A stretch of DNA of 64,000 nucleotides from Phytoseiulus persimilis (taxonomy: Eukaryota; Arthropoda; Arachnida; Mesostigmata; Phytoseiidae), in the NCBI GenBank assembly GCA_037576195.1, contig CM075101.1:23684001-23748000 (forward strand), in the 5' to 3' direction. How positions within the stretch are numbered: the stretch's first letter is position 1; every line of letters begins with the position of its first letter. Positions 48,023-63,000 of the stretch are shown here, in pieces. The notes beneath the pieces are model-generated. The model did no database searches and had not been told where the DNA came from. It saw only the letters and a list, made by a program, of their open reading frames with translations. The position numbers and the translations under genes are program-made.

Positions 48023-51000
48023 CTGCAGGAAGGCCTCAGAAGTAGTACCTTGATTCGAAACGCAATAAATGCTTCTCCTGACCAGTCACTCACGTTGGGC
48101 ATTTCTTGAAAACTTGGATGAGGAGTTTGGTCGCTTCGGACGAGCACTCCTTGTAGATCGACTCGAAGTGGAAGCGAACCATCGAGACGTTCTCCCTGGT
48201 CTCGGCCTCGGTCGCACCCAGGAACGGAGAAACTCCCGAAAGTCTGTCGAAAGACGCAAGGTTTAGTTTGTGGCAGCTGATTGATTCGTTCGCAATACGC
48301 TTCTCAGCTCCGCAAAAGCAACTTACAGAATGTACATGAGAACTCCCGCGCTCCAGACATCGGCAGCGTACGTGACAGGTTCTCCCCGTACGACCTCGGG
48401 TGCCATGTATTCCGGCTCGGTGTCCATAGCGATCTGAGCTCCTCCCTTGGGAACAGCGTGAGTGGAGCCGAAGTCGACGAGTTTCACAACGCACGACTGG
48501 CCGTCGGTGACGCACACGGAGTCGGGCTCCACGTTACAGAACACCAGACCCTTGAAGTGGAGGTATTCGAGGGCATCCAGAACCTGTTTCATCACCCGGG
48601 AAACCTGATCCTCGGTGTAGGTGTTCCGCAGCGTCAGGAATGCGAGGATGTTCATCGATAAGCGCTCCATAACTGCGAAACGGAAATCCTGCTTGAGGAG
48701 CTCCTCGAGACGCACAATCAAACTGGATTCTCTGAGTACTGGAAGCTCTCGTTGCAGGGCTCCGCCATTTTTTCTCAGTGAAAACAAAGCTCAGGGCAGC
48801 CCACAGAAGATCTGCTCGAACTTTATGGGAGGGGAACGTGGGAAGGGAAGACGTACCGAGCAAGGTGATGTCGCCGTTCTGGAAGGCATCTTCTAAGTAG
48901 ACGATGTTCCTGTGGACTAGACCTTTCAACATATCGTATTCCCTCTTCCCGTTCTTCACCGCCTTCACGGCGAGGAGCCGACTGTTCGCCTTCGAGGTTG
49001 CCGACATCACCACCGAGAAGCGACCCGATGAAAGCTCCGCGGAGAAGTTGTACTCGTCCTTGGGATTCGAAGTTTTCAACGGAATGGGATTCTGTTCCCT
49101 CGAGTAGTCGTGCACGGGGGCTGAGCCGACGGCGATGTCGGTGGTTTGCACTTGCTGGTAACTGTGGGTCGGGCTGAGTTTGATCTTGCTGGTGCTCTCA
49201 GCCGGCTCCGTCGCCACCGCTTTGGATGCGTCCGATGTGACCGAGTTTCCGAACGAGTTGGTCGCCGTCACGGTGAACTCGTACTTCGTTCCCGGCTGGA
49301 GATCCTCGACGATGTAGAACTCGTTGGTGATTCTCTCCGGAATCCGCTGCCATTCGGCGTCCGTCGACTTCTTGTATTCGAGCGTAAAGAACAGAGTTCG
49401 TGCGTTGTTTTCCTGTCGGGGTGCGTTCCATTCGACGTACATCTGAGTCGATGTCGCTTGGGCCACTTTCGGTGCGGCCGGCCTTCCCGGAGTGTCTCCC
49501 ATGCGAAGACGAGCGCGACACACGGCCGTGCCCGATGCGTTTCGTGCGACGCACTTGAACACACCGGCGTCGTAGGCCATGCCAGGGGCGAGAGTGAGAA
49601 CGGACGTGCCCTTGGCCTCGTCGGTGTCGATCTTGATGCGGGAAGTGGGGATGAGCGGGCAATCGTTCCTGAACCATGTGAACTGGGGCAGAGGGGTGCC
49701 AACAGCGACCGCCGTAAAGCTCACGTTGTTGTTGTCCATGATGACGGCGTCGTCGATTTTCTCCCTGAAGAAAGCCAGTGTTCCGATAGCCTCTTCGCGG
49801 GTCACTCCTCGGAATCTCCACGCGTCGTCCCGGACGGCGTCGGTCTGATTCTTGATGTAACCGACGGCTCCAACCTCTTTGTTCAGACGAAGCAGGATGG
49901 ATTTGTGGTCATCCCCACCCTTCTTCTCGTCGTCGATTTCTTCGTCCATCATGTCGTGAAACTTTCGTCGTTCGCGGATCACCACTTGTGGGTAGATGTG
50001 TTCTCGCTCCTGGCCTCTGGCAAATATCTGCAAGATCGGAATGTTCGTTTAAGGAAACGATACGTTCTCTCCACCGGTAAAACCTCCGGGTTCTCTCCGG
50101 AAACAACATCAAGACTCACGTCAGATCCTCCCCAGTGTTGTCCTCGCAGGCTGGCAGCAAGACTCGGGCTCCGAGAAGCTCCGACTTTCATGTATTGCCT
50201 CAGGCGGAGTGGGAAGTCGGTGTCTCTCAATTGCAGCAGATACGTGTCAGGACCCTGCGCGTAGCTTTGGAAGAGAATTTCATTCAGCTCGTCAAAGTAT
50301 CATACCACGGTGCTCGGAGCAACTCTCGGAGCATTCTTACGGTCGCTGACAACTCACTTGGACTCGTTTTTGAAGTTTTCGGTGTCGTATTTCCTCTTCT
50401 TCCGTTCGTAGTTGAAGCCAGGACCGACGTGCTCCCGCTCTCGGTCAGCTGGGCTATCCGGTGGCGTGTAGGGTTCTCCGGGCGGATAGATCATCTTACT
50501 CGGGTGATAGAAGCACGATTCGAGCGTGCGGCGACGGAAGCAGGTTCGGCAGTTTGCGTTCGCGTACCATTTCCTCCATTTCTCTTGGTAGTCCAGCAGT
50601 CGTTCGTAGTTGCCCAGCTTGGGTCCCCTATCGGGCAGATCGGCCATCTTAAGCCATGGATGGTTCAAAGCCGCCTTGACGTTCAGACGGGCCTCGGGCT
50701 CGAAGACCATGAGCTTCGCGACGAAGTCTCGTGCATCATCGGAAACACCGTCGAAGCCCTCCGGAAGGAAACTCATTTTCCCGTCTTTTATGTTCGAGAG
50801 CGTTTCTCGATCGTGTTCTCCGAGGAACGGAGACACTCCACTGAGAAGGATGTAGGTTATCACGCCGACGCTCCACATGTCAGAAGACAATTTGGCCGGT
50901 TCCTTCTTCGCCAACTCGGGCGCAACGTACTCGGGGTGACCGTACTCCTGAACGAAGTTTCGGTCGTTATGGATCCTTGTTGCGAGGCTGAAGTCCCCAA

Positions 51001-54000
51001 TCTTGATGTCGTCTGCGTCGACGCGAGCCACCAAGAGGTCCCCGAGCGTGAGTCCGAGATGCGCGATGCCGCGAGCGTGCATGTAGTCGAGACCTTGCAG
51101 TGTTTGGCGAACGTAGTTCGCGACTTGTCCTTCGGTGACTCCACCGCGCTTCACGATGTTGTTGAGTAGTTCGCCGCCCCCGCAAAGATCCATCACGAGC
51201 GACATAGAATCCGGGGACTCGAAAGCATCCCACATTCGGCAGAGCTTCGGATGGGCCAGTTGGTTCATGGTGTCCATCTCATTCTTCATCCACTGCTTGA
51301 ACTGGGGATCCTTATGATGCATGACCTTCGCAGCATACGAGTTACCCGTCGCTCTAGCAACGGCGTGGTAAGTCACTCCCTGGGTGCCCCTGTGAAGTCG
51401 AAGCAAAACGTCAGCGAAACGACAGTTTTCCTACCTCTGCGATTAGGCGAGCACTCATATGAAGGTTTGAAGCTCTGAACCATACCTTCCAAGTTCCTCG
51501 CCTAGGTCGTAGTAGTCTCTGAATGGCTTCGTTCGTGGCCTGACGACCCGGGGCGCTTTGTACGTTGACAGGTCGTAGAGCTCTTCTTCCTGCTCAATCA
51601 GGACGGTGGCGGAGCAAGTTGCGTCTCCAGCAATGTTGGTCGCTTTGCAAGAATACAATCCCGCGTCTCTCATGATTGAGTCGTCAAGTTTCATGATGCA
51701 TAGGTCAGGCTCCTCCCAGCTGATCTTAGTTCGACCGGAAGTGGCGACTGGCAGCCAGTCTTTGTACCAACGAATGTTTGGGTAAGGTTTACCAACACAG
51801 CGGCACTGCAAGGTTCCGCTCTGGCGGAGCATGATCGTGGTGTATTCGAGTCTTTTGGTGAAGTGGGGTTCTTCGGCGAGCTCGAGCCTGATCGACTTCG
51901 TGGCCTCCCCGTGTACGTTCACCGCCTTGCATGTGTAGATGCCCTCACATTCCTCGTGCATTCGGTTGATACAAAGGAGAACCTGTCCGTTGCGGTCCTG
52001 AATTTTTTCGTATCGACCACCGGACTCGATTTTCTCATCTTTGAAGTACCACGTGCATTCTGGATGTGGTAGCCCGTACACCCAGAACTCGATGCTCACG
52101 GGTCTTCCCTTGACCCCGAACATGACTTCTTCCTCTTTGCGCACGAAATAGGGAGCGCAGCCGTCTTTGTCCAAGTCGTGACCGAGGTCGATGTCCTTCG
52201 GTTTGAATTCTTTCTCGGGAACGTCTTTGTCGTCTTTCTCCACCAGTTTACTCCTGTGAGCGGTGACCGGTGGGGACGGCTCGCTCAGGCCGTGCTTGCT
52301 CTCAACGAGGACCCGGAACTGATAATCCTGACCGGGTCGCAAGCCTTTGACATCGGTTGTGGTGTCCTTGATTCCCGTGGCGTACGGTTTCCACGCGCCT
52401 CCTGGATGATCACACATTTCAATCCTGTATGTGACTGGGGTGCGTGGACCTTTGGGAACCGACGGCTTCCAGCGAAGAGTGCAATCATGATCCGTCATAC
52501 GAACAATATCGGGCGCGTCGTCGATAGATGGCGGAATGCCTAGGTAAATTAGGAGTGAAACAGACTTAGTGAACGTCTTTTCGATTCCGAATCAACCCAG
52601 AAACGATCGAGGAGAAACTGTTCAAGAGAACGATGAGGAAGACTTCTCAACCCTATCTTGTGGGGATTCGACGAACGCTCAAAAAGTGAGCGATTGGCTA
52701 CCGAAGGAATTATGAGAAAAATCAGATCAAAAACTCAACCTGTATCGGGCTTGAGGTATTTAACAACACTAGGTTTGTCTCCGTCGAAGTTCGGTCGCTC
52801 AAAACCAAAATCGTCGGTGTCACTGTGATCCCCGTTATCAGGTTCATTAGCAAGTTTCTCCTTCTTCTTCTCCTCTTCCTTCGGCTCCTCGGAGATCTGG
52901 TAGTTGAGTTTCTTCCAAGCTGCATGCCAAGGACAATCTATCAATCGTACGCTCGATTCACCATCATCAAGCTTAAGTTACTCGTTCACGATTAAGCTTG
53001 ATGATCCAAAATTATATCTTCCAATGCTCTCCGAGTCGCAGAACGCTCTTCGAAAATTGACGGCGCACCATCTCGCCTTCGGTCTTGAATCGACGCAGAA
53101 AACTGACCTGGCTTCTCATCCTTTTTCGAGTATTTGAGATCCGTCGCTGAGGAAATTGAAAATTGATGGTTGACAATTTGAGAATACATCCGCTGTGATT
53201 ATTTACGGAAACTCGGTATAGATATCCGTCGAGAAGTGTGAGACCAGAGCCGAATTGGAAAAGCGCATTGCAGAACATGGAACATACAGGAAGACAGATC
53301 TGCCCGATATGCATCTTGACGCCAAGGCCGCTCACTTAGCACCGAACTGCTCTCGCAGTGGCAAAGCATTCACCCAGTCTATGGTCAAGATTCGATGCTT
53401 GGCATCTAAGCGGAGATAGTCCCTCTAGACTCATCTCCTACAGTTTCATGCATGGCGTATGACGGGGCTGACGATGACCCGAACAGAACAGACAATTCAT
53501 CTCGACCCATTCTTTCATGCAGCTCACGTGTTCGGGCGCCCGCTCAAGGTCACTCGTACGGCTGGCCCCACCCCGATAGACGAGAAAGATGTTGCAAAAG
53601 AATTTTATTACGGAAACAATCGATGGCCTCGACAATGTCGCGCCATCTATCGATTGATCGACCTTTTCGGGCGGGAGTAAAACGAAAGATCGACTGCCAA
53701 ATCGTTTGGTTGATTGTTTGATCAAACAGTCAATATCAAACATTTTCCTCCTTTCCACCCAGGTAACTAGTCGAGTTTTTTGTCAACGAAAATAGCGGTT
53801 ATGGTTCGCGACGCGGTCGTCGCTGCGAGAAATCTTGAACAACGCACTCCGTGAAGAGTGGATGAAGGGTTTCCTTCTTCGCCCAGGGTGGTAAGTGATA
53901 ATCATGATGATGGGAGGATGCATCCGTGAAAGGATGAACGAATCGGTTTAATGGATAAGATGACGAGGACGGATCCCCTGGGAGCGTTGGTGGTCGAGTT

Positions 54001-57000
54001 CGCTGACGATCGTCAACGACAAAAACACGGAAATCGAAACTCAAACCAGCGGATCAGCTATGGCGCAACATTCGCGATAGAAACCTTGAATACACAGCTC
54101 GTGGAGGGAGAAGTTGTCCGCTGGAAGCATTCATCACCAACGCTCAGAGGAGGCTGTCACGCAGGCCACGCAGTTTTGAAACGCGAGAAGATTCTATGCC
54201 CGGAACGTAGAGCCGTGTACCAAGGCTTGCGCGTTCATTCGGACAACTCTGTTGCGGGGTTCGATAGTTTTCGTTCGGGACCGCTTCTCGCGCTCTACAC
54301 CGCGGACTCGAGGCCTGCACAAAACTCCGTCCTTCAGCGTCGACTCAACCATTAAAGCATGCGATGTCTACTATGGAAAATTGATGAACAGAGAACAAAA
54401 CTAAGGTTTGGATTCCTACCATACTAGAGTTTGTCGAGGTATGTGCCGCTCCACCTCGACTAAGAGGGAGAGAGAGAGAGAGAATCGGAGAGGGAAGAAA
54501 AAGAGAGGGAGGATCTCGGACGCGACCACCTCTTATGGATTCGCATCCTTGTCATCGTCTTTGCAACATCTTTTCCGGGCGCACGAGTATACGGGACCGA
54601 GACCGAGACTAGAGATCAACTCGTCGAAATCAGTGTCTGAAGGGTCATCGTAATCCCCTGGGTAACCAGAAGCTGTCGCCCCCCCGCTTCGATGATTCAC
54701 AGTTAATGAGGAGTACGCTTGGCTAACACAGAGACACACCAGACATGTTACGACCAAAGTCAGCAGGAACCGGGCGTAAGTTGTGATCCGTTCGTTTGCC
54801 GCGGGCGGACCAGCAGATCTCTCTTCGGTTTCGTGCTCTTCGTCTTCGTTGATGCGTGCCAGAATGTTGGAGGTTGCCGACTCTGCCCATTGTTGAACGG
54901 CTTCATTCGAGGAGCGCTCCCTGAATTCTTGAGGTGTTGACGACCGACCACGGGAATCTCGTCGGGGCTCCGCCCGGTACATCATACGAATGTGTCTGGC
55001 CATTGAGCCTTCTCGGAACTCGGCATTTTCACGTATTTCCGTAATCTCCGGAACGGCCGCGACGCTCTCGTCAACTTGGGAGCCATAACCGTCGGTATCG
55101 TAGTGCTTCCTCGTCTCAGACGGTGCCCGGTAGGGCCGATCGAATATCTCTTCGAAACGCTGCCTCCTCAAGCCCGAGCTGGACGTGTTCCTATCTCTCG
55201 ACAGGAGCTCACTCGCCGCGTCGCTGTCGGTCACATCGGATTCGAATCCGCTCGAATCGCGGTCGTTCTCGGTGAATGTTCTTTCTTGAGAGGGATGATC
55301 TTCTTTCCGCTTCCGAAGTGGATGCGTTTCTGACTCACTGGAATCTTTTCGTTGACCGCTTTCTTGCTTCTGCGTCTTTTTGCGGGCGCCCGGCGAGCCC
55401 GTCTGAGAGTCTGCATCTTTCGGCTCCTCCCTTTGTCTTTGATCGACGAGATCTTCCAAGTGTTTGCTCATTCGTTTTTTATGGCTACTGAAGGCCTCCG
55501 CATCCGAATCGTCGGTCTCGCTGGCATACTTGGCGTATTGCGCGATGCTCATTCGACTTTCTTCTACAGCTAGCATGCTGCCCTTCGCCGGCCGACTCCG
55601 TGCCACAACCGAAAGTTGGGCGTTTTCGATCGAGGCGGCTGTTTCGTTTTCGACAACATCTTCGGATTCTTTCGCGCGCCGAAGTTCGAGTGAACTTCCA
55701 CCATCGGACTCCGAGGCGTATCTCGCGTACTGAGCGATGCTCATCTCTTCTTCCTTGGAGCTCTGCTTTGCGAAACGTTTGCGCTCATGTTTTGGCGAAG
55801 ACATGGCCGAAACTTTCGTCTCGAACTCGCTGCAGAACTGGGCGTACTCCGCTATGCTCATAGCGCGGTCTCGAGAGACAGCTGTGCTCTCCTGAGACCG
55901 TGGCCGTTGATTTCGACCAGGATCACGACCTGCTTGCCTCGGATCTTCCGTTCCAATATCAGAAGCATCGCTGGCGGAGCGCGCGTACGCGCCGATACTC
56001 ATTTCGACGACGGGGCCTAACTCCACCCGACCGCCCGATACCGGTATGGGAATGGAGCGTTCCGCTTTCGGAACGATTTCATCACAGTTTTCTGATTCCA
56101 CATCACTTGCGTACCTTGCGTACTGAGCGATGCTCATCCGGTGCTCAACCCTTCGGCTGCTTGCGCTTGTTCCGCCTTTTTCGTTTGTTCCGGTCGGTTC
56201 TCTCCGTCCCGCCACTTCGGTTTCGGACTCACTTGCGAGTCGGGCATACTCGGCGATACTCATCTCACCTGCTATCGAGCGAGCTGCGCCCATCGCCGGG
56301 ACAGTGTGTTTCTTGGTGTTCGCAGCTGACGCGAGCAAAGAAGAGTTTCCGCTTTTTCCACTCTGAGGTAAATTCTCAGTTTCTGACTCGATGTCACTCG
56401 CGTAACGTGCGTAGGCGGCTATACTCATGCCAGCGCCTGCTTCGCAGATTCGCCCGGAGCTCTCAGCTGAAAACCGCAGCCCCGTCATTGGAGTCTCAGG
56501 AACGGCGGATTTTCCTTTTTCCGGTTCGGATTCAATGTCGCTGGCGTATTTCGCATAGGCTGCGATGCTCATCGTGTTCCCGGACGGGCCATCTCTCCGC
56601 GTCGGCTGACTTCGACGGGGGGAAACGGGCTCTGGGGCAGAAGGTTCCCCCTCCTTCCCTCTCTCATCCGCCCTATGCTTCGCAGGGACCGAAGATTTTC
56701 GGTGGACTCCGGCTCGCGCGTCACTTTCAGGTTCAGACTCGCTCGCGAATCGGGCGTAGGCGGCAATGCTCATCTCAGATCTCGTGCTCAGTCCATCTTC
56801 ACCAACAGCTTTCCGGTTTCCGGGAGAGGACAACACAGCCCTCACCTCCGTCGGAGCCTCCTCTCGCCGAGGAGCGGCTCCGTAGGAGGGCCCCGGCCGC
56901 TCTTCCTTGTCATCGGGGGTGACAGGCGCCGAGCTAGGCGTATCTTTAAACAATTTCGGAATGAACAGCTCAGCGTCAGAGGGTTCCGCGTCACTGGCAT

Positions 57001-60000
57001 ACCTCGAGTAAGCCGCGATGCTCAACTCACCAGTGTCGATCAGGTCCGGTAGCCGTACGCTCTGGGCAGGTTGAGGAGGGGACTCGTTGTCGCTCTTGAC
57101 TTCAGTTATCAGCAGTGTGGACGGGGCCGAATCTTTCCTCATTCCCCCCGCTTCGTTTCCCGCCTCGGTCACCGTGATGTTGATGATTCGATCCGAATCG
57201 CCAGGAGTGATCGGTTCCTCGATTCGGATGCGTTCGTGTTGAACAGGTCCGTCGAAAGTTATGACCATCCTACTGGTCTGATTTATCACCAGTTTCGGTA
57301 CGACCCGTTTGGGAATGAACAGCTCCGTATCGGACTCCGCTTCGCTGACGCCAGCCGATGGGTCGCGGGTCTGCTGAGAGCCTCTGGTGTTTGCAGAAGC
57401 CCGGACTTGCTGGACTTCCAGCTCAAGACTTTCGGTGCTTTCTATGAGTTCGGTTATGACCGTCTTACGCGTTTTCCTGTCGAGTATGATCCGGTATTTG
57501 ACGTCGACGTCCGTTCGGTTGCCTTCATCGTCGGCGGCGTAATCGAATGACGATCGGAGGCCTTTGCGGGTCGTTTGTTTGAGCTTCTGAGTTGTGGCCT
57601 CGTTGAATTCGGCCTCAGATTCGGTCCCGCTCGCGTAACGGGAATAAGCGGAAATAGTCAACAACTCGTTCGATTCTGTAGGCTCGCCAGACGCTTCTGT
57701 CGTCGACAGCGTTTCGAAGTCAGCTCGAGCGGCGGTTCTTCCTTCTGCAATTTTTGATCGCACCTCCTCCGCGCATGCCAATCCTGGGGTCGCAGCTTCC
57801 TTCTTCTTGACAGAGGTGCCCCGCGAGGGTAGAGCGAACCGCTTGGCCATATTGTGATCGGTGTCGGACTCTTCCGAGCCGCTGGTCAATAGCTTCGCAT
57901 AAGCCGCTATCGACAGCTCGTCGAGGGCGTTGTCGGCCTGCAGCGAGGTATAAGGTTCGGCCGCGGCGACGGGGCCGATCGTAGACTCGGTCGCTTGTTC
58001 CTCCGCGTTCTGGACGCAAATCGGTTCGTAGTCCTCGTAGTCGCTAGCATATCGAGAATATTGAGCGATAGTGATTTCTCCACCATCTTCTTGGCTACGT
58101 TGACTCCTGGCTGGCCGATGCGGCGACGCACTCGCGGCCACATCGTGACTCGCGCCCCTCAAACTGTTGTTGCGAGAATAAGCAGCTATACTTACCACTT
58201 CGCTGCCGCATTCCACGATGACCTCCTTCAGTCTGTGACGCTTGCGGTTCGAGCCGCGGCTGCCTTCGAGCTCCGAGTCTTCTGTTTCGCTGGCGAATCT
58301 CGAGTAGGCTGCGATGCTCATCGTTGATCCCCCGCGATCTTCGGCCGAGAGCGTCCTCTTGAGATGCTTGCTTGGCAGTTCCTGGCGCCTCTTGACAACT
58401 TCCTGCTCGAAGTCCTCGTTTTCGCTGGCGTATCGAGAGTACTCGCAAATGCTCATGTGACGTTCGCGGCCGTCGGCCTGCATCGCGCCTGTCGGAGAGA
58501 GCCGCGTCGGACTCGACGGAGACTTCTTCCCCTTCTTCTTCGTCGACGATCCCCGAGGCGGGAGTTGGACAGATTCGGCTTCGTCGGTTTCACTGGCGTA
58601 CTTCGAGTAGGCAGCTATTGAAAGCTCGACCGTTTCATCGTAGTCCTCGAGCGATCGTTGTTTCCGTCGCTTCTTCGTGGAGGACCCTCTCGCGGGAAGG
58701 CCAGAGTTGTCGCTCGTGGCCTGTTTATTGAGCGATTTCGATTGCTCGGAATCGCTGAGAACAGCTCGGTAGTACTCTGCGATGCTCACTTCGTCCTTGA
58801 ACCTGCTGCCCAGCACGTCGTTCCCCGGGGTAACGTGACGTCTCTCCTTGCGTTTCTCCGAGGAGCCTCTCGAGGGGAGCTGGGGGGGCGACGATTGTTT
58901 CCTCCGTCTCTTAGTCGATGAGCCGCGCGGTGCGAGTGAGCCCGGCGAATCATTTCCTTCCCGGATGACGCGGCGATAGTAATCTGAAATGCTGATCTCC
59001 TTGCCGCCGGTAGGTGTCACCGACTCTGAGGACGGGTATTTCTTCCTTGTTTGTGTCGTCTCGTTCTCCCACCGACCGTTCTCAGGGTCGCTCATCGCGT
59101 GCCTGTAGTAGGCGGATATGCTCATCTCCTCCTTCGTGGAGTTGACGGTTTCTCTGCGTCGAACGGCCGCACCTACGTTCCAGTTGCTGTCAGTTTGAGC
59201 CACAGCGGTGTTGTTAGAAGCAGTCGGCTCGTCACAACTGGACATGCCACTCAAACATTCGCGATAATAGCGAGAAATGCTCATCGTGCTCCCGTCATCC
59301 TCGACGGAGTGCGACGATCGGTTAGTAAAATTATCACACTGGGCGAAACAGCGGCTCTTACTGTCTTCCGAAAGTTTGCAACAACACTCGGCTTTCCCGT
59401 GGCTGTTCGATATCTCGCAGCGGTACTCTCCGAAGTCGTTTCCTTCGAGATTCTTGATGACGAGTCTGATGATGCCGTTGCGATCACGCTCGAAACTATG
59501 GCGGTCCGTCATGACGACTTCAACGCCGTCCTTATACCTGCAGGCCATCGATAGGAAATTCGTCACTCCTATATGGGACTCGCCGACTGCTGGCTTCAGG
59601 AACAGGTGCTGGACGAGTCCGTAGAAGCTCAATAGAAAAACAGAAACGCACCATTTCACGTCGGGTTCAGGCTTGCCCGCAATGCAGGCGATGAGCTTGG
59701 CGGTCGAGCCAGCGAGGAGCTCTTGGTCGCTGAGTTTCTTGAGGAATGATGGAGGTTCTCCACTGTCGGGTTTGAGCTCGGTTTCCCTGTAGAACCGAAA
59801 ATATGAGAACGAGTTTCAGGGAGCTATGCGACGGAAGGAAACCCATGTCTATGGCCCCCTCCAACGCGAGAAAAAGCCTGAATCGAGAGAGTTTCTCGGG
59901 TTCCATTATTCCTTACTTGATTGTTCCCTTACAAACAGTCGAATCTTTGCCAGCAGCGTTCTTGGCAGTGCACTGGAATTCTCCGCAATCGTTGACGCTC

Positions 60001-63000
60001 GGGTTAGCGATGAAAAGTTTGCATTTGGTTTCGGTCTTGGTTATCGTGTACTTGGCACCGTCGTGAATAGGCGCTCCTCGGTAGGTCCACGAGATTTCAG
60101 GCTCGTCGTCACAGAGAACTTCGCATTCGAGAACCAACGGAGCTCCGAGCTTGACCTCGGTGTCACTCAAAGGCTTGATGAACTTGGGAGGCTTGAGAAC
60201 CTTTACGTCGGCCTTGGAGGACTGCTCCCCACTGGGACTCACGAGCCTGCATTCGTACTGACCAGCATCGGTCATCGCGGCTTTGGGAATCTCGAGTCGG
60301 GCCGTTTCGCCATCGAAAGAAACTTTGCCATTATCGGCTCCAGTGACAGGCTTCCCGTTTTTGAACCACTTGACTTCCGGAGCTGGTGTTCCCATCACTT
60401 TGGCCTCCAGGACGAGCTTGCTTCCCTCGGCCACAGCCTGATCCTTGAGCGGGGAGAGGAAAACGGGTGCTTTTTCGTCCTGAACGCCGAGGGGTGCGTC
60501 AGATCTCATTTCGCCCATCGGATTCGAGGCTTTGATCGCGTAGAGACCCGCGTCGGCAGGCGAGCAATCCTTGAGAGTGAGACTGCAGTTGCCTTTGTCG
60601 TCTTCCTCTGCGATGACTCGCTTGCCATCGGGCTTGATAGGTTTACCGTCTTTAAGCCACTCGATTTTCGGTTTCGGCGTTCCGGCGACCTGCGAGGTGA
60701 ATCTGGCGGTTTGTCCGGCTGGAACAGTACAATCTTGCAGGGGCTTCAGGAACGACGGCTTCTCTGTAACTCGGACAACAAATCCATGATGAGAAGTCTG
60801 ACCGGAGGCTATCCCCGGGAGTCTCGTCCCTGATGAACGGATGCAGATATTGCCTCGGGAGAGGCCGAGACGAGGTCAAGCAAGGTAAGACACTTCTGAC
60901 TCACCGTTCACGGTGACCGGAGCGGACGACTTGTTCTCTCCTTGGTCGTTCTTCGCCACAACAGCGTACTCTCCAGCGTCTGCGGGCTTGACGTCGTCGA
61001 TATTCAGCGTCGTCGTGCCGTCGGGTTTGGTCTCAACTTTGAGGCGAGGATCCGAAACCGGTTTCCCGTCCTTGAGCCATTGGATCTCGGGCTTCGGGAA
61101 CCCGCTGACCTTCGCTTCGAGTTTCCCGGGCTTTCCTTCGTCGAGCGCCGTAGCTTTGAGGCCATCGATGAACATCGGCGTCTCCCGTTTCAAAGCTTGC
61201 ACCGTGACGTCAGCCTCGCTGGGGCTGGTACCACACTGATTGGTAACTTCACACCGGTACTTTCCCGCGTCTTCGGGCGCGCAGTTCGCGATGACGAGGA
61301 TCACGGTGCCATCTGGCTCGATTTTCAGAGCGACGCGCTTGTCGGCTGGAACCTCCTTCCCGTCTTTGAACCATCTGGCAGTGATGGGAGTTTCGGATTT
61401 CACCTTGCAAACAAGTTTCAATTCCTCGCCCTCGGTCAACTTCAATCCTTTGAGTTGGGATTCGAAAATCGGTTTCTTGCTGAGAACTGAAAAATTTATC
61501 AAGGCTTTACAGCGACTGTTCCCACCTGGGATCTTATAGCGCTGGAGAGTAGATATCGGAATCGGGGAACTTATGTGCTTCTTCGAGGTTCATCGCTGAA
61601 ATTCGTCACCTTCTGCGGGAGCACTGCTCTCGGCTGATCCTCCGTCGGGGTTCTTGGCTCGCAGCGTGTACTTTCCCGCGTCTGTAGGTTTGCAATTAGG
61701 AATCTCCAAGGCCACTGTTCCGTCGGGATTCTTGATGAATTTGACACCATCGGCTGTAATGAATAGATTTACATTCATTGAAGTTATCCGCTTCGTGCTC
61801 CCGGCAGCAACGTCTGGCTATATTGCGTTGTATTGTGAGCGGGACTTTCGATTATTCGAACGATGACCCGAAAACAAGAAGCTATTCCTGAAAGGCAATC
61901 GCGTCGAATTTACTCCTTGTCGCACCCCTTCCCTCGTCTTGAACTGTCGTCGTAGTCCCTCCCGTTTTCATGGAAGCGACAAAAGCGACTCAAGAGACAG
62001 AAGGGTGGATTATACGAGGATTGTTCAGGCTGATTTTCGATTGGAGAGAAAGTGCTTTTCCGATGCTATACCGACTCCTCCCATGAGTACGGCCCCAAAG
62101 ATCTCTCTGAAGAACGGGCGGAAGAGGCAGAGCTAGCCGTACTTATTCTTATATGCTTCCGCTCCTTAAGTCACACTGCAGACATGATGAGGAGCACTTT
62201 GAATTTATGGATTTGCTCATGCAATGAATCCACCGGAGAGAAATTTATTACCTTCAGTCAGAGGTTTGCCGTCCTTCAGCCATTCGACGTCCGGAATGGA
62301 ACCATCTTCGTTCGGATTGAGCTTGGCTTCCAGACGACCTGGTTCTCCCTCACCGAACTTCGCGGGTTTTAGGCCTTGTGCGAATGACGGTTTCTTCATC
62401 GCTTTGGCTGCGGACAACAGTTTCGTTGGTCGGGTCCGACTCCAGAGAATTAGTTCAAAATACTTCTCGAGCAGCTTTTTGTTGCGTTAGCACCTGACAA
62501 CATTGAGGGAAAAAGCAGGTTCCCTGATGAAGAGCTTGTCTGAGCGTTAGGTATCTAAGCGTGTTGAAACTAAGCTTGGCCGCCATGTTGTTACTGGAGG
62601 ACTTGCGTTCCCTCAGGTGGTCTCACCAGAGCACTCAAAGCGTCGATTCAGCCCGTCGCGGGGAAAAAAAGCCAGCAGACGCCTCAAGTGCGAATTTCGA
62701 GAACTTACGAGACACGTGGACCGGAGCAGAGCTCTGGCCCTCCTCGTCTGTGCCGGGGTTTCTCAGCACGGCGGTATAGTTCGCAGCATCTGACGGCTTT
62801 GCGTCGGAGAACTGCAAGCCTATGGTCCCATCAGGAAGCGCGAACAGCTTCGCTTCGTCGACAGCGTCCAACGGTCTTCCATCCCTCAACCAGCTGACTG
62901 TAGGCAAGGAGCCATCCTCGTTTGGTCGAACTTTTCCACTGATTTTTCCCGATCCGCCCTCATCGACTTCGAGGGGCTGTAGCGCTTGCTCGAACCTGGG

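Follow-up and report, generated by a model that had tools for sequence, protein, structure and literature searches.

A 21-copy motif array in an UNC-89/obscurin gene of Phytoseiulus persimilis

We identified 21 copies of a short motif in a single minus-strand open reading frame (ORF; 54536-59815, 1760 codons) of the mesostigmatid Phytoseiulus persimilis. The ORF lies in a window of 64,000 nucleotides (C1:23684001-23748000, where C1 is contig CM075101.1; GC content 53%) within a 181 Mb genome, and positions without a contig prefix are counted along this window. From its domain content, we identify the gene as the arthropod orthologue of UNC-89/obscurin. The copies follow the pattern SIAxYxRYAS and constitute a real, selected and apparently undescribed motif array in a known giant protein. 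Sequence features of the copies suggest that the array may serve as a scaffold with many docking sites.

The motif array

The copies share the consensus [MLIV]-[ST]-I-[AS]-x-Y-[ASY]-[RK]-[YF]-A-S-[DE], and 10 of the 21 satisfy all 12 positions. The regular expression [SLT]I[ACSGD][AQEDRK]Y[ASYR][RKQ] matches exactly 21 times in the ORF, compared to 0.007 chance matches per shuffle after residue shuffling (1000 shuffles). This count agrees with a preliminary description of the window, which had reported 21 copies in one open exon. In a position-specific matrix, the copies score from 18 to 42 bits, while the best other site scores -0.9. Shuffled linkers peak at 12.3 bits (300 trials), a value exceeded by 19 of the 21 copies when each is scored leave-one-out. 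A possible 22nd copy, ERITTYARFLL, which adjoins a hydrophobic segment described below, was rejected because its matrix score (-6.6) is within the shuffle range.

The array falls into three zones that differ at core position 5, counting the Ser/Thr as position 0. These zones, the second linker motif listed with them, and the phosphosite pattern and hydrophobic tail described below go beyond the preliminary description. Its features, all on the minus strand, are as follows:

55511-59284 (-): 21-copy SIAxYxRYAS-type array found by regular expression and matrix scan, with a 14-residue core in each copy; the first core begins at 59284 and the last finishes at 55511
58748-59284 (-): zone 1 (copies 1-4), where core position 5 is Tyr (SI[SA]xYYRxx) and position 9 is never Ser/Thr
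56984-58624 (-): zone 2 (copies 5-12), where core position 5 is Ser, except for Ala in copy 10
55511-56773 (-): zone 3 (copies 13-21), where core position 5 is Ala and most copies read SIAxYARYAS
57803-58927 (-): five LxxRG[ST]SxK[KR] linker motifs, with RG starts at 58927, 58870, 58690, 58555 and 57823

Successive copies lie 39-212 residues apart (mean 62.2, median 53). The previously noted spacing of about 60 residues thus describes the mean, but the spacing itself is irregular. The linkers average 47 residues and are rich in S, E, R, A, P, T and G. They had been described as unrelated to one another, which is correct except for short shared pieces, chiefly the basic motif listed above (its R-G-[ST]-S-x-K-[KR] part occurs five times, in the first half of the array) and ELFIPK, which is present twice.

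Several observations indicate that conservation of the motif acts on the protein. Ile1, Tyr4 and Ser/Thr0 (19 Ser, 2 Thr) are each present in all 21 copies, and only M, L, I or V occurs at position -1. Other positions are looser: position 5 is Ala in 10 copies, Ser in seven and Tyr in four, position 8 is Ala in 15 of 21, and position 7 is Tyr or Phe in 13 of 21. The codons of the invariant residues vary freely (ATC 10, ATA 6 and ATT 5 for Ile; TAC 14 and TAT 7 for Tyr). Ala2 draws on all four of its codons and Ser0 on both the AGY and TCN sets (AGY in 17 of 21 copies). Between cores (14 codons, 210 pairs), the proportion of synonymous differences (pS) is 0.83 and that of nonsynonymous differences (pN) is 0.36, whereas random 14-codon segments from the same ORF (200 sets) have a mean pS of 0.74, a mean pN of 0.73 and a lowest pN of 0.677. 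Synonymous positions are thus saturated while pN is half that of random segments. Finally, Tandem Repeats Finder reports no array with the period of the motif in this sequence; the repeats that it does list are three very short ones (units of 6, 15 and 9 bases). Based on the free codon variation, the pS and pN values and the Tandem Repeats Finder result, the copies are old at the DNA level and are held by selection on the protein.

The arrangement of the copies retains a trace of how the array arose. The order of position-5 residues along the array (YYYYSSSSSASSAAAAAAAAA) forms five runs, and as few runs occurred in 1 of 100000 permutations. Identity between neighbouring copies is slightly raised with the position-5 column excluded (0.554, compared to 0.507 overall; as high in 376 of 20000 permutations). 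This zonation and the neighbour identity suggest that the array probably grew regionally, by old duplications. The same two observations are what could be cited for the view that the array is simply a DNA-level tandem repeat whose motif is not under selection. We regard that view as highly improbable, as the protein is kept despite saturated synonymous positions, the linkers have only short pieces in common and no array of that period was found by Tandem Repeats Finder. Recent tandem duplication of DNA, against which the preliminary description had argued, is rejected on the codon divergence, the pS and pN values and the Tandem Repeats Finder result, and conservation is confined to the protein level.

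The motif appears to be restricted to this exon. A strict DNA pattern has 10 matches in the genome, all of them in the array exon and all in the sense orientation, and its reversed control has none. A looser pattern has 66 matches, 12 of them in the array exon, compared to 40 for its reversed control. These two patterns, which recover 10 and 12 of the 21 copies, thus provide no sign of a second array in the genome. A third pattern, coding Ser only as TCN, has no genome matches, as expected from the predominance of AGY at Ser0. A protein search of the genome with the whole ORF returned the ORF itself and one weak match (E 1.2e-5, 24% identity); this match is not a second array, as it is an Ig-like stretch that lacks a motif copy (best matrix score -2.8). 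Searches of microbial and viral contig collections with the exon, an alignment of six copies or the first kinase-like domain returned no relatives, a result that is uninformative about arthropods; for the exon query against viral contigs, the automatically chosen peptides avoided the motif.

Matches to the looser pattern also form clusters elsewhere in the genome (C2:1.38-1.42 Mb, C4:1.21-1.22 Mb and C4:5.6-5.7 Mb) that consist of near-identical DNA repeats kilobases apart. Two of them, C4:5616345-5712878 (matches typically about 8 kb apart) and C2:1379646-1416366 (typically about 3 kb apart), look like DNA amplified in tandem and have no relation to the array.

A proposed docking scaffold and its alternatives

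The array has the features of a multivalent array of short linear motifs, in that its conserved core is short, constraint acts on the protein, the linkers vary and there is no known fold. No Pfam domain matches it at E 0.01. A 30-column motif profile and a single 20-residue copy found no match in the PDB at E values up to 10, a search that leaves room for a new fold. These null results disfavour a folded repeat domain, though a new fold could still exist, and they accord with the earlier suggestion of a multivalent linear motif. The array probably sits in a long disordered linker that runs from the Ig tandem to the fn3-Ig-Ig unit and the first kinase-like domain (PK1), with disorder judged from composition only.

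Composition also suggests that the core is helical. The predicted helix cost of the core is 0.304 kcal/mol per residue, compared to 0.642 in the linkers (lower values favour helix), which places the core under the 5th percentile of 902 linker 8-mers (0.325). Helix starts can be closed by a hydrophobic staple that involves the N', N-cap and N4 positions. The hydrophobic residue at -1, Ser/Thr at 0 and Tyr at 4 correspond to these three positions. The helical moment at 100 degrees is 0.321 in the core and 0.264 in the linkers. An amphipathic helix had been claimed for each copy; the helix is plausible from its cost and from the fit to the N-cap and staple, but amphipathicity is weak, with similar moments at 100 and 180 degrees.

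We propose that the array functions as a multivalent scaffold of short linear motifs, in which self-capped helices dock one discrete partner under the control of phosphorylation; we consider this reading somewhat better than an even bet. Each copy would form a short helix starting at the Ser/Thr N-cap, with the preceding hydrophobic residue and the invariant Tyr4 closing the helix start. Ile1 and Tyr4, often joined by Tyr/Phe7, would form the contact face, through which one copy would dock one molecule of a single discrete partner. Irregular, flexible linkers could then concentrate about 20 partners at the M-line. The helix end, [RK]-x-x-S-[DE]-x-[DE] in most copies, is a predicted site for basophilic (CAMK-type) and CK2-type kinases, and its phosphorylation may switch docking on or off. 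We infer the helix, the docking, the phosphorylation and the M-line location from sequence.

Spacing this irregular and flexible would suit a fixed-lattice partner poorly. It is better matched by many discrete molecules, each bound to its own copy, and we therefore favour multivalent docking. This bears on an improbable alternative, namely that each copy binds a subunit of a filament (actin, myosin rod or paramyosin) in the manner of nebulin SDxxYK modules or Xin repeats. In its favour, the array belongs to a giant sarcomeric protein and offers a short S-x-x-x-Y-x-[RK] motif, with high helix propensity, about 20 times over. Nebulin repeats share S-D-x-x-Y-K and have been suggested to be largely helical, according to the available portions of PMC7109182, and C. 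elegans UNC-89 is described in the accessible text of PMC7023976 as binding paramyosin, though via its SH3 domain. Nebulin modules are 35-40 residues long, however, in contrast to the 39 to 212 residues that separate copies of the array, and no nebulin or Xin family match to the array was found in Pfam at E 0.01.

We also considered a phosphorylation-site array, in which the copies act as a kinase substrate sink or charge switch and the helix is merely a context for kinase recognition. Tyr4-x-Arg6-x-x-Ser9 is followed by acidic residues. [RK]-x-x-[ST] occurs in 16 of 21 copies, [ST]-x-x-[DE] in 14 of 21 and both in 13 of 21, while the combination is found at 3 of 187 Ser/Thr residues in the linkers. 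Mean net charge following the motif is -2.9 per 11 residues, compared to -0.2 along the array. There is also a precedent at the M-band, where phosphorylation of the KSP repeats of titin is followed by binding to the Bin1 SH3 domain in vitro, as reported in the part of PMC4413555 consulted. On the other hand, the strongest constraints (positions -1, 0, Ile1 and Tyr4, each 21 of 21) are N-terminal to the site and exceed what a basophilic kinase needs, the zone 1 copies lack Ser/Thr at position 9, and PK1 and the second kinase-like domain (PK2) both lack the catalytic Asp. Self-phosphorylation of this obscurin is therefore unlikely, and we consider a phosphorylation-site array an unlikely primary function.

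Self-association of the copies is another alternative, either as stickers and spacers in a condensate or as helix bundles between antiparallel obscurins at the M-line. Cores of small residues with aromatics, separated by long hydrophilic spacers, would suit this view, and an overlap of antiparallel UNC-89 C-termini has been suggested in Drosophila flight muscle (in the sections of PMC10129394 covered). A bundle would prefer regular spacing and helices longer than about 10 residues, and we thus see little chance that self-association is the function of the array.

Several points weigh against the docking scaffold that we favour, or against parts of it. Two copies fall within the shuffle range when scored leave-one-out, at ORF residues 542 (9.4 bits) and 275 (0.1 bits, the weakest). 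The helical moment is likewise raised at 180 degrees (0.341, compared to 0.261 in the linkers), which is compatible with a strand, and the excess at 100 degrees is slight. The phosphosite counts depend on the shared ancestry of the copies. Position 9 is L, M, I or L in the four copies of zone 1, which means that some copies lack the phosphosite. Because the DNA patterns recover only 10 and 12 of the 21 copies, a diverged second array could have escaped them. Finally, the docking proposal is drawn from the sequence of one species.

Partners can be named as candidates only, and include alpha-actinin-like EF hands (from the 1-4-5-8 spacing of the motif), MASK and PK1. MASK is an ankyrin-repeat protein that binds both PK1 and PK2 in Drosophila, according to the portion of PMC10129394 consulted.

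Gene structure and candidate isoforms

The obscurin assignment made in the preliminary description is confirmed by the tandem Ig domains, by a RhoGEF domain and by the best structural match of PK1. The order tandem Ig - PK1 - Ig - fn3 - PK2 is present as in UNC-89/obscurin. The best PDB match of PK1 is the Drosophila obscurin PK1 (8ak2; 299 bits), followed by twitchin (208 bits). RhoGEF matches at C1:23762215-23762800 (-), about 14 kb upstream of the window, presumably belong to the same transcript as the array. No SH3 or PH domain was found in a Pfam scan of two ORFs of the locus (L002), which was not a thorough search for either. The flanking domains are as follows:

59917-61589 (-): five I-set Ig domains directly upstream of the array by Pfam (three in ORF 59916-60875, two in ORF 60879-61589)
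51458-52539 (-): fn3-Ig-Ig ahead of PK1, exon start at 52539, 3' end not fixed
50357-51430 (-): PK1, a pseudokinase in which Gly replaces the catalytic Asp (AHLGLT), PDB match 8ak2 (E 4e-88)
48326-50048 (-): Ig and fn3 between the two kinase-like domains, followed by the start and middle of PK2

Both kinase-like domains look inactive from their sequences. The Gly that replaces the catalytic Asp of PK1 is strictly conserved across arthropods, according to the sections of PMC10129394 covered. In PK2 (48326-48790, -), Asn occupies the position of the DAPK3 catalytic Asp and FCNVEPDS replaces HRDLKPEN, while DFG is kept. Invertebrate PK2 domains have been published as possibly or probably active (which is not a strict criterion of the family), in contrast to the PK2 described here. 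With Asn at this position, PK2 is doubtful as the kinase of its own array.

The exon that carries the array has two possible ends, one spliced and one read through:

59537-54533 (-): array exon if read through to the TAA at 54535-54533; 59537-55339 if spliced at donor 55338
59652-59786 (-): preceding exon, first half of an Ig domain, with a phase 2 donor
55337-55338 (-): candidate alternative donor CCA|GTGAGT, phase 1, beyond all 21 copies, with a modest score of 2.9 in a donor matrix
54713-54778 (-): hydrophobic, transmembrane-type segment YARFLLTLVVTCLVCLCVSQAY in the read-through tail (Kyte-Doolittle)
53604-53952 (-): two polyadenylation-like hexamers, ATTAAA at 53952 and AATAAA at 53609, past the stop codon of the tail, weak evidence

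Joining acceptor 59537 to the half-Ig exon 59786-59652 completes an I-set domain that scores 72.0 bits, compared to 46.3 when unspliced. The donors at 59916 and 59651 are phase 2, while the exons toward fn3 and PK1 (53146-53108, 52919-52740 and 52539 onward) all enter in phase 1. The array exon thus cannot be skipped in frame, barring intervening exons that were not found. The phase of donor 55338 fits the downstream phase 1 exons. Two further phase 1, consensus-like donors at 57030 and 56268 (-, GGTGAG context) lie in G-E-[LM] codons just ahead of motif copies and could vary the copy number by splicing. Kinase-containing isoforms would retain 21 copies with donor 55338, 11 with 57030 and 15 with 56268.

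Reading on from 55338, 268 codons precede the first in-frame stop (TAA) and make up a tail at 54533-55338 (-). The chance of 268 open codons is about 6e-5 (from stop frequency in two regions taken as noncoding). The codon score of the tail is 0.031, compared to a maximum of -0.047 among 109 overlapping presumed-noncoding segments, while the training exons score higher (0.17-0.28). A first scoring scheme gave uneven results, with -0.12 for residues 1591-1650, where other frames are no worse, and 0.37 for the last 50 residues. The hydrophobic maximum of the tail (2.15, Kyte-Doolittle, 19 residues) was matched by 0 of 2000 tail shuffles, and about 60 residues follow it. The end of the tail is Cys-rich (CARKRCCKDDDK), and Pfam returned nothing for the tail beyond one match at E 0.9. 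Two poly(A)-like hexamers are found within 1 kb, compared to about 0.4 expected at the density of the window, which is weak evidence.

The open frame past 55338, the hydrophobic segment and the subsequent stop are read most simply as a possible kinase-less, membrane-anchored isoform. If 55338 were left unspliced, the product would be an obscurin with a 268-residue tail and a single transmembrane helix, which would insert the 21 docking sites in the sarcoplasmic reticulum (SR) or surface membrane. We put this forward tentatively, as a candidate more doubtful than not.

At the low end of the window, an ARID/BRIGHT DNA-binding domain (1179-1781, -; Pfam E 4e-18) probably belongs to a separate gene.

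Comparison with known obscurins and muscle motif arrays

A literature search with the motif string returned no paper. In the literature covered, an array before PK1 is not mentioned for Drosophila or C. elegans; the primary Drosophila papers lie outside this coverage and could contain a prior description. Neither the array nor a transmembrane obscurin is mentioned in the available portions of PMC10129394, PMC12812942, PMC8062120, PMC7109182, PMC10650911, PMC9886281, PMC3388081, PMC7957886, PMC7023976 and PMC4413555. In the accessible text, the word 'transmembrane' is absent from PMC10129394, PMC12812942 and PMC3388081 and occurs once in PMC7023976, for small ankyrin.

Short motifs are known from other sarcomeric proteins. 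The titin Z-repeats and the 1-4-5-8 motifs of the palladin family, which bind the alpha-actinin EF34 (in the part of PMC8062120 consulted), are short docking motifs in sarcomeric Ig proteins, with hydrophobic residues at these four positions of a helix. In the array, positions 1 and 4 are I and Y and positions 5 and 8 are mostly small (A/S and A), in 21 copies; the titin Z family has no Pfam match over the array at E 0.01. Drosophila obscurin is found at the M-band and alpha-actinin at the Z-disc (PMC9886281, sections covered), while C. elegans UNC-89 is also present at dense bodies (PMC10129394, sections covered).

Nebulin SDxxYK is likewise a short S...Y.K/R motif that is probably helical and present in many copies in a muscle giant. 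Unlike nebulin, the array has irregular spacing, Ile rather than Asp after the Ser and no Pfam nebulin match. The actin-binding Xin repeats likewise repeat a short motif many times in a muscle protein, and the array has no Pfam Xin match. Pfam holds both the nebulin and Xin families, and the Xin consensus is unrelated to the motif of the array.

The gene shares its RhoGEF, Ig tandem and two kinase-like domains with Drosophila Unc-89, C. elegans UNC-89 and vertebrate OBSCN. Ig-fn3 ahead of the second kinase, the arthropod-type Gly of PK1 and long linkers in the kinase region are further shared features. Unlike described UNC-89/obscurin proteins, it has a candidate transmembrane-tailed isoform, and PK2 also lacks the catalytic Asp.

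Obscurin connects the contractile lattice to membranes and to signalling, and the membrane link in vertebrates is small ankyrin 1. If the proposed docking sites are real, about 20 of them in one arthropod obscurin, which may also have its own membrane anchor, would offer a defined peptide for finding the partner. The non-modular C-terminus of vertebrate obscurin A ties obscurin to the SR membrane (PMC12812942, same portion). There, obscurin contributes a soluble tail, and the single transmembrane span belongs to the small ankyrin that this tail binds (PMC7023976, available sections). Unlike this pairing of obscurin A with small ankyrin 1, the obscurin tail described here may itself carry a membrane segment. 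If so, a single polypeptide would serve the purpose for which vertebrate obscurin A relies on small ankyrin 1.

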